This document shows, in pieces, positions 14,064 through 15,885 of a stretch of DNA of 36,783 nt. The notes under the pieces were generated by a model, which saw only the letters and a program-made list of their open reading frames with translations, did no database searches and was not told the DNA's origin. Position 1 is the stretch's first letter, and every line of letters begins with the position of its first letter. The translations under genes were made by a program, and so were the position numbers. Origin of the DNA: Bacteroidota bacterium (GTDB lineage Bacteria; Bacteroidota; Bacteroidia; Flavobacteriales; Flavobacteriaceae); contig CATAMV010000069.1 of NCBI GenBank assembly GCA_949487855.1, forward strand, positions 1 to 36,783. The letters run 5' to 3'.

Positions 14064-14266
14064 TGTCCGATTCTTTTCGCTTATTGTACACTGGAAATCG
14101 TGTTTATGTACAACGTATAAAAGCGCTATTAGAAGAAAATAACATTTTCCCCATTATAAAAGATGAATCCGAATCTGCTCGGTTAGCAGGTTTTGGTGCA
14201 CCTACATTGATGCAACAATTGTGGGTGCCTGCATCAGAAGTTGAGAATGCAAAAGCCTTTCTCTAA
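14063..14266 (+). CDS. DUF2007-type putative signalling protein
   Basis: The 67-residue protein fits the small alpha/beta fold of DUF2007 (often listed as putative prokaryotic signal-transducing protein, PII-like). It has a strand [20 protein letters not shown], a helix, then [10 protein letters not shown] and [15 protein letters not shown]. The internal LWV-----E-A--FL ending is characteristic. No enzymatic residues are evident. It starts within the stop codon of the membrane protein upstream. Its own stop overlaps the stop of the opposing ABC-F gene (bases 14263-14266). Confidence 0.75.
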
Positions 14267-15885
14267 GCGTACATTTTTGTGCGTAATTCCTTTATTTTAG
14301 TGTCCGCCATATAATCGTCAAAAGTCATATAACGATCAATAACTCCTTTTGGTGTTAGTTCCACTACCCTATTTCCAACAGACTGCGCAAAGGCGTGATC
14401 GTGTGTGGTAAGCATTACCGTTCCTTTAAACTTAATAAGCGAATTGTTGAACGCCGTAATGGATTCCAAGTCCAAGTGATTTGTTGGCTCATCCAGCATA
14501 ACCACATTAGCGCGTTCCATCATCATGCGAGAAAGCATACAGCGCACCTTTTCACCTCCAGATAAAACTTTTGCCGATTTAAGCGCTTCATCTCCACTAA
14601 AAAGCATCTTACCTAAAAAACCGCGTAAAAATACTTCTTCCCGTTCTTCATCTGTTTTAGCATATTGGCGCAACCAATCCACCAAAGATTCATCAGCACC
14701 AAAATACGCCGCATTGTCCAGTGGCAAATAACTTTGATTGGTCGTCACACCCCATTCAAAAGAACCTGCACTGGCTTGTTGATTGCCGTTTAAAATTTCA
14801 TAAAAAGTAGTCGCTGCACGAGCATCTTTACTATATACCACAACCTTATCTCCCTTGGCTAGATTTACATCTATACCTGTAAAAAGTGGTACACCGTCAA
14901 TCTCTGCAGCAAGTCCTTCGACATTCAAAATTTGATCTCCGGCTTCACGCTCACGCTCAAATATAATAGCAGGATAACGTCTTGAAGAAGGGCGAATATC
15001 AGCGATATTGAGTTTGTCTATCATTTTTTTACGCGAAGTAGCTTGCTTTGATTTAGCGACGTTTGCGCTAAAACGAGCAATAAATTCTTCCAACTCCTTT
15101 TTCTTTTCTTCAGCTTTTTTGTTTTGTTGCGCGCGTTGTTTTGCAGCCAACTGGCTAGACTCATACCAAAAGGTATAATTACCAGAAAAGTGATTGATTT
15201 TTCCAAAATCGACATCAGAAATGTGCGTACAAACGGCATCTAAAAAATGACGATCATGCGAAACCACAATTACCGTATTATCGTAGTTTGCCAAAAAGTG
15301 TTCAAGCCATTGAATGGTTTCATAATCCAAATCATTCGTAGGCTCATCCATAATTAGGACGTCTGGGTTTCCAAATAATGCTTGAGCTAATAAAACACGT
15401 ACTTTTTGTTTACCGTCTAAATCTTTCATCAAAGTATAATGATGTTCCTCATGAATATCAAGGTTGGAAAGTAGCGTAGCGGCATCGCTCTCGGCGTTCC
15501 AGCCGTTCATTTCTTCATATTTGATTTGCAACTCCCCAACACGATCGCTGTCTTTGTCTGAAAAATCGGGCTTGGCATACAAATCGTCCATTTCCTTTTT
15601 TATGGCAAAAAGGGATGTGTTCCCACGAATTACGGTTTCCAAAACTGGAAAGTCGTCATAAGCGAAGTGGTTTTGTTCCAAAACGGACATACGTTTACCA
15701 GTTTCAAGATGCACATTTCCTGAATTGGGCTCCATTTTACCTGTAAGGACTTTAAGAAAAGTAGATTTTCCTGCTCCGTTGGCACCTATAATTCCATAAC
15801 AATTTCCATGATTAAAGGAAACATTTACTTCGTCAAATAGGACGCGTTTGCCAAATTGAACAGAAAGATTAGATACAGATAGCAT
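14263..15885 (-). CDS. ABC-F ATPase, YbiT-like, with one degenerate ATP site
   Basis: The protein has 540 residues and two ABC domains joined by a charged linker (~245-305, [19 protein letters not shown]), and no membrane segments. This is the ABC-F plan; such proteins bind the ribosome E site and act in translation or antibiotic protection. Domain 1 has a good Walker A (GANGAGKST, 34-42) and Walker B ([11 protein letters not shown]), but its signature is LDGKQ (156-160) instead of LSGGQ. Domain 2 has a normal signature LSGGE (441-445) and [10 protein letters not shown], but its Walker A position reads [10 protein letters not shown] (351-360), with no GKS/T. Family assignment is firm, subfamily less so. 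It converges on the DUF2007 gene. Confidence 0.9.

Follow-up and report, generated by a model that had tools for sequence, protein, structure and literature searches.

Descriptions of ABC-F factors usually give them two ATP sites, with the part played by each ATP still unclear. In the known members of the family, the interdomain linker is the part that approaches the P-site tRNA, and the double Glu-to-Gln trap is common in the field.

It is established knowledge that the signature of one ABC domain completes the ATP site of the other domain (see also PMC7756269). For the ABC-F proteins studied, a review states that one functional ATP site is needed for ribosome binding and that hydrolysis of one ATP is needed for release (PMC6389857). 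Prior to hydrolysis, EttA of M. tuberculosis has been described in one state with site I fully enclosed and the Q-loop of site II away, and in a rotated state where site II is closed and portions of site I have moved away (PMC8782954). Every Glu-to-Gln mutant of the resistance protein MsrD is impaired; the two single mutants differ, the first-Glu mutant keeping some resistance and the second-Glu mutant being more toxic (PMC10314930). Deletion of ykpA in B. subtilis was reported to cause stalling that is weak on the reporters K10 and E10 and strongest on R10; Arg runs stall in all strains (PMC11381351). A survey of the family lists YbiT as well as BdAF1, a Bacteroidetes-only subfamily (Murina et al. 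2019, PMC6723617, Table 1); in the article the word "Walker" appears once, in the reference list. Outside the family, the exporters TM287/288, ABCB2/B3, MRP1, CFTR, and Pdr5 carry losses on one composite site, and Pdr5 has also lost the Walker A Lys (PMC7756269).

The gene and its surroundings

The window analyzed here is a stretch of 36,783 nucleotides, contig CATAMV010000069.1 of a Bacteroidota bacterium. The source genome, of a marine-type bacterium, amounts to 1.45 Mb on 129 contigs and is 89.97 % complete. On the minus strand of the window lies the gene of a 540-amino-acid protein (14263-15885); read on the plus strand, frame 1 of this interval is broken by many stops. The protein has the make-up of an ABC-F factor, with two stretches of PF00005 and the linker PF12848 at 65.5 bits (cut-off 25.9). 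As none of its five Pfam matches is a transmembrane family, it is not an ABC exporter by membership, and it has no hydrophobic stretch typical of a membrane span (highest 19-residue Kyte-Doolittle mean, 1.06). The NCBIfam equivalog NF011646/PRK15064, which we take to be YbiT, scored 606.6 bits, below the curated cut-off of 762, and was still the best of 189 models matched. E. coli YbiT is also the best PDB sequence match (E 2.7e-145). In a fold search with the predicted structure, ribosome-bound YbiT ranked first with low TM-scores of about 0.4, probably because the domain arrangement in the model is uncertain. The confidence of this model, built from 44 close rows, is only moderate (pLDDT 72.8, pTM 0.44), and the geometry is therefore not argued from it.

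Two ABC-F linkers were detected in the source genome, the second belonging to a protein (L002) that is 26 % identical to the 540-amino-acid protein. A D12-class adenine DNA methyltransferase gene (PF02086, 1.8e-22) directly follows a 165-amino-acid frame without Pfam match (16352-17956, plus strand), and the two, next to the ABC-F gene, may be a small methylase unit of acquired origin. The plus-strand frames 13410-14063 (217 amino acids) and 20628-22193 (521 amino acids) have no Pfam match at 1e-5.

Relatives, alignment, and trees

In a search of the phylum, 116 of 395 genomes had a match at E <= 1e-100. The gene is thus patchy in the phylum, since the other 279 had none at this threshold. When 15 of these 279 were searched again at E <= 1e-30, 13 gave matches, all of 28-35 % identity and taken to be other ABC-F proteins, and two gave none. 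Thirty of the 116 matches were used as loci and 80 of the other 86, with G012, G095, G138, G047, G109 (partial gene), and G283 left out. The best 80 of at least 577 further relatives were added, among which the nearest named ones in the matches listed are Flavobacteriaceae genomes at 91-92 % identity. These 190 rows, window included, were aligned with E. coli YbiT and with 23 of 52 relatives on plasmid-labelled records, hand-picked for spread, giving 214 rows that are all distinct. A set of 44 Flavobacteriaceae-type rows consists of the window protein and 43 picked from the same best 80 of at least 577. Twenty-one other ABC-F proteins from the source genome, the re-searched genomes, and a further search, with YbiT-like hits excluded, served as control.

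A DNA-level search of E. coli genomes gave no match. Among viral contigs, E. coli YbiT as the query found four loci of 94-99 % identity, which are probably host DNA, and the window protein as the query found none. Contigs titled Rhizobium (L053) and Candidatus Rokubacteria (L078) hold Flavobacteriaceae-like copies of 77 and 80 % identity, respectively; these records are probably mis-titled or mis-binned.

Trees were made for 66 of the 214 rows, namely, the window, E. coli, the 23 rows from plasmid records, L177-L192, and the remainder thinned at 80 % identity. One tree (LG+G4) contained four of the 21 other ABC-F proteins as outgroups, making 70 rows; the other, under a mixture model, held the 66 rows without outgroups. 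Motif columns were excluded from both.

Motifs of the two ATP sites

The domain-1 P-loop, Q-loop, Walker B, and switch His form site 1 together with the domain-2 signature and D-loop; site 2 is its pseudo-symmetric counterpart. The features are the following, where 202 rows are those in which P-loop 2 is lost:

14263..15885, minus strand: coding sequence of the 540-amino-acid ABC-F protein, YkpA-type branch of the YbiT-like rows; ATG start, stop codon at 14263-14265
15760..15786, minus strand: Walker A1 GANGAGKST, residues 34-42, site 1; G34, G37, G39, and K40 in 202/202 rows, S41 in 201/202
15673..15675, minus strand: Q-loop Gln 71, site 1; present in 202/202 rows
15406..15420, minus strand: degenerate signature 1 LDGKQ, residues 156-160, site 2; xSGGx in 1/214 rows
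15325..15360, minus strand: Walker B1, residues 176-187, of which D180 and E181 serve site 1; both in 202/202 rows
15256..15258, minus strand: switch histidine H210, site 1; 202/202 rows
14980..15216, minus strand: interdomain linker PF12848, residues 224-302; RFSAN (271-275) with 3 changes in total in the 202-row clade
14806..14835, minus strand: former P-loop 2, residues 351-360, site 2; pattern missing in 202/214 rows, Lys in 15/202
14719..14721, minus strand: former Q-loop 2 position, L389; Gln in 12/12 rows with intact P-loop 2 and in 4/202 others
14551..14565, minus strand: signature 2 LSGGE, residues 441-445, site 1; SGGE in 214/214 rows
14470..14505, minus strand: Walker B2 and D-loop 2, residues 461-472, with E466 of site 2; E466 lost in 34/202 rows
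14401..14403, minus strand: switch histidine H495, site 2, retained in the window copy; lost in 21/202 rows

The D-loop of domain 1, within residues 176-187, faces site 2, and D, H, G, N, or E occupies its position 185 in the 202-row clade. The D-loop of domain 2 (HLD) faces site 1, with H470 and D472 in all 202 rows.

A first-pass annotation of this DNA had read the two Walker A positions (34-42 and the degenerate 351-360) and the two signatures (156-160 and 441-445), and all four readings, which lie on the minus strand, were right. It had called the second site wholly degenerate, which goes too far; what is lost is P-loop 2, signature 1, and, in addition to the motifs that it listed, the Q-loop Gln (L389). 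These are the three elements, with P-loop, Q-loop Gln, and signature counted at both sites, that two consensus ATP sites would need, and site 2 of the window copy is without all of them. The site is disabled rather than wholly erased because the Walker B2 residues D465 and E466, the switch histidine H495, and the D-loop Asp D187 persist. A cryptic P-loop in domain 2, named beforehand as the observation that would speak against the annotation, was sought in the whole protein with the pattern [AG]xxxxGK[ST], which matches once, at residue 34, and nowhere in domain 2. Three orthologues of 91-92 % identity (L033-L035) have DLDGKQK at signature 1 and share the motifs at the former P-loop 2. A gene error, frameshift, or sequencing accident is ruled out, as these orthologues share the degenerate motifs.

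All 21 control proteins have two P-loops and two [LF]SGG signatures each, and the aligned columns of all 21 show both sites with Lys, Gln, Glu, and His and both signatures with Ser-Gly. Text patterns alone matched Walker B twice in 17 of the 21 and the switch in 16, where the aligned columns gave 21/21. In two of the other ABC-F proteins, L002 of the source genome and L216, P-loop 1 begins with Ala (AKNGSGKT); the other motifs checked are canonical.

Distribution of the site-2 loss

P-loop 2 is lost in 202 of the 214 distinct aligned relatives, a sample that is uneven, consisting mostly of Flavobacteriaceae or other Bacteroidota, and in which, E. coli aside, the phyla other than Bacteroidota are represented solely by genes on plasmid-labelled records. 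All 202 have one P-loop per protein; the 12 rows that keep P-loop 2, a small and partly hand-picked set, all have two. The 202 span Bacteroidota, Bacillota, Fusobacteriota, and Mycoplasmatota. Among those outside Bacteroidota are Bacillus, Cytobacillus, Paenibacillus, two lactobacilli, four Clostridia, three Fusobacteriota, and two mycoplasmas. A trait of Bacteroidota only is thereby ruled out. The 12 are five Gammaproteobacteria (E. coli, Providencia, Pseudoalteromonas, Halomonas, and Vibrio), Neochlamydia, and six rows from the phylum of the window (L187-L192) that lie outside its class.

At the former P-loop 2, the Lys is missing in 187 of the 202 rows and the preceding Gly in 200. Relics that retain the Lys, such as GPNDLVKTT, occur in 15 rows, with Bacillota, Fusobacteriota, mycoplasma, and Bacteroidota rows among them, and in these, some ATP binding at site 2 might conceivably persist. 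The Walker B2 Asp is retained in 198 rows. In 34 rows Q, T, D, G, or N takes the place of the site-2 Glu (E466), and in 21 rows R, Y, K, or F that of H495; with Glu still in 168 and His in 181 of the 202, some constraint on domain 2 remains.

In eight rows of Fusobacteriota and Bacillota (L227, L239, L224, L228, L231, L232, L238, and L241) the site-2 catalytic Glu has become Asn, Asp, or Gln. Rows of these two phyla with a replaced site-2 Glu are natural versions of the laboratory one-site E-to-Q trap. In the mycoplasma rows L233 and L240, VSHDSD replaces VSHDRH at the site-1 switch and signature 2 reads TSGGE, which is drift adjoining an intact site 1.

Constraint on the two sites

Parsimony changes were counted in the 202-row clade at 15 residues of site 1 and at their 15 pseudo-symmetric partners of site 2. 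Site 1 had a single change and site 2 had 292, with random sets of 15 columns giving 264.5 (sd 67). Site 1 is frozen, and site 2 evolves like an average column. The earlier proposal that site 1 is intact, that site 2 is lost, and that the losses lie within one interface is borne out by these counts. Within site 2, changes are most frequent in the columns of the Q-loop and the signature (up to 45), and the fewest occur at the Walker B Asp (3), the His (7), and the D-loop Asp (0). Signature 2 and D-loop 2, which reside in domain 2 and complete site 1, are frozen, whereas signature 1 in domain 1 drifts; the split in constraint tracks the composite sites and not the domains. Averaged over all its columns, domain 2 is only slightly ahead of domain 1 (21.8 vs 15.9 changes per column). 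On the 66-row tree, E466 changed 11 times and H495 four times, and Glu 181, His 210, and Lys 40 did not change.

Order of the losses

A single change on the tree accounts for the loss of P-loop 2, and its branch has support of 99 under both models (SH-aLRT from a short search, Neochlamydia and the outgroups being long branches). In both trees the window protein groups, with support of 99, with the Bacillus relative L226 and apart from the Gammaproteobacterial YbiT. Signature 1 lacks the form xSGGx in 213 of the 214 rows, including E. coli YbiT and all 12 rows with P-loop 2. The lone canonical signature 1 (LSGGE) is that of Peptoclostridium, which has lost P-loop 2, and the near-canonical forms LTGGE and LGGNE are found in other Bacillota. 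On the outgroup-rooted tree, the 12 intact rows make two groups, one with VAPGW or VSPGW at signature 1 and one with LPTDL or similar; of the two, the Gammaproteobacterial one lies closer to the degenerate clade (support 87).

Judged from these states, site 2 appears to have worn away at different faces in separate lines. For the intact groups, the motifs indicate erosion of signature 1 and not of P-loop 2; in the YkpA-type clade, they indicate a single loss of P-loop 2 and erosion of signature 1 in patches. A joint loss of the two is ruled out, signature 1 being non-canonical in 213/214 rows. The expectation that both losses would occur together in a clade is not supported: P-loop 2 was lost once, in a clade far wider than Bacteroidota, with signature 1 already non-canonical in 12/12 keepers, and Peptoclostridium has a canonical signature 1 although its P-loop 2 is lost. 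That the losses fall together is thus true in space, within one interface, and untrue in time; given this order it fails as history and holds as geometry.

Comparison with described systems

E. coli YbiT (PDB 9njf and others), the best sequence and fold match, shares the layout and a non-canonical signature 1 (VAPGW). It differs in keeping P-loop 2 (GTNGVGKST), the Q-loop Gln, and both catalytic Glu, and is about 41 % identical. The B. velezensis relative L226, 56 % identical and of the same branch, has also lost P-loop 2 (GRNELAVTT), but its signature 1 is LGGSE and the first Gly of P-loop 2 is kept. The label YkpA was assigned to L226 here, its record being without that name, and it stands in for YkpA of B. 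subtilis. BdAF1, also an ABC-F group of Bacteroidetes, was compared by description only (Murina et al. 2019, PMC6723617).

The window protein shares with the resistance proteins MsrD and Vga(A) two ATP sites with different jobs; in MsrD both Glu are present, whereas the sole intact P-loop of the window protein is in domain 1 (PMC10314930). The bias seen in MsrD is the opposite of a simple carry-over, and the division of labour between the sites may therefore differ among branches. The degenerate-site exporters are membrane transporters, and their degenerate site is described in the review as not drifting (PMC7756269), unlike site 2 of the YkpA-type branch. The resemblance is one of mode of working, not of family membership.

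A proposed cycle with one ATP and its alternatives

The sequences indicate that the one-site ABC-F branch is real and clade-wide. The main reading, to which we give a probability of roughly 70 %, is that the window protein belongs to the YkpA-type branch as a housekeeping ABC-F factor and operates with one ATP site only. Its relatives and the conserved linker suggest that it binds the ribosome in the E site and acts on translation. As the branch retains the equivalent of site I of EttA, the simplest model would be closure and release by site 1 only. ATP would bind to site 1 alone, at the domain-1 P-loop, Q-loop, Walker B, and switch His, and domain 2 would close the site with its signature and D-loop. 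ATP at site 1 would shut both domains with the protein in the ribosomal E site, where the linker would be placed near the P-site tRNA. Hydrolysis at site 1 alone would then reopen the protein, which would leave the ribosome. Site 2 would not hydrolyze ATP, in Bacteroidota would probably not bind it either, and would act as a fixed half-interface. We infer in this way a one-ATP cycle and a nucleotide-free site 2. The altered ribosome-release cycle suggested by the first-pass annotation is plausible. The broader proposal, that one-ATP ribosome factors make up the whole YkpA-type branch across Bacteroidota, Bacillota, Fusobacteriota, and Mycoplasmatota, with site-1 hydrolysis driving binding and release and site 2 a nucleotide-free scaffold, has in our judgment an even chance. 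That YkpA-type proteins are functional is suggested by the effect of ykpA loss in B. subtilis, the degenerate site having been read in the B. velezensis relative.

The former P-loop 2 could have been rebuilt as a new binding or regulatory loop that replaces ATP, for instance through salt bridges across the interface. In the 44 Flavobacteriaceae-type rows, R356 and A357 do not vary and S352 and D354 are at least 90 % conserved, and the model keeps a predicted strand (347-351), loop, and helix (355-365) at this place. Across the 202-row clade, however, columns 352-357 change at about the median or above, so that any new motif is lineage-local, and the confidence of the model is moderate (pLDDT 72.8, pTM 0.44). 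A strongly conserved clade-wide motif at the former P-loop is ruled out, the conservation being that of the 44 rows and not of the whole clade, and we regard a rebuilt loop as doubtful.

A site 2 that binds ATP without hydrolyzing it, as a permanent glue, has been proposed for degenerate exporter sites, which may hold ATP as a scaffold (PMC7756269). Retention of the Walker B2 Asp in 198 of the 202 rows and of the P-loop 2 Lys in 15 would fit such a role. It is nevertheless unlikely: the Lys is gone from 187 rows and the Gly before it from 200, and the site-2 columns change at the rate of random columns, whereas degenerate exporter sites have not drifted among orthologues according to the same review (PMC7756269). 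The unconstrained look of these columns, together with the 279 of 395 phylum genomes without a match at E <= 1e-100, could also be taken for random decay of a dispensable paralogue toward a pseudogene. Against this, hardly any variation is seen at site 1, signature 2, and D-loop 2 across the 202 rows, which come from at least four phyla. The gene is also undamaged in a source genome of only 1.45 Mb (89.97 % complete) where two ABC-F linkers were detected, and decay is highly improbable.

Implications for the ABC-F family

The portions of the open-licence literature among the matches listed hold no description of a loss of P-loop 2 or site 2, and the one-site branch is provisionally regarded as undescribed. 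Its loss of one site, common to relatives in several phyla, questions the idea that ABC-F proteins need two ATP sites. In the form given by the first-pass annotation, that idea is too simple: every Glu-to-Gln mutant of MsrD is impaired, in line with it, but one of them keeps some resistance (PMC10314930). Double E-to-Q traps and ATP counts obtained with E. coli paralogues may not transfer to the YkpA-type branch. If the one-site reading is true, the double Glu-to-Gln trap would be a single-site trap there, and the second-site Glu of some members is naturally replaced by Gln, Asp, Asn, Thr, or Gly. A natural and widespread branch with one sequence-dead site would allow the roles of ATP to be tested per site without engineered mutants, in an organism as easy as B. 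subtilis.
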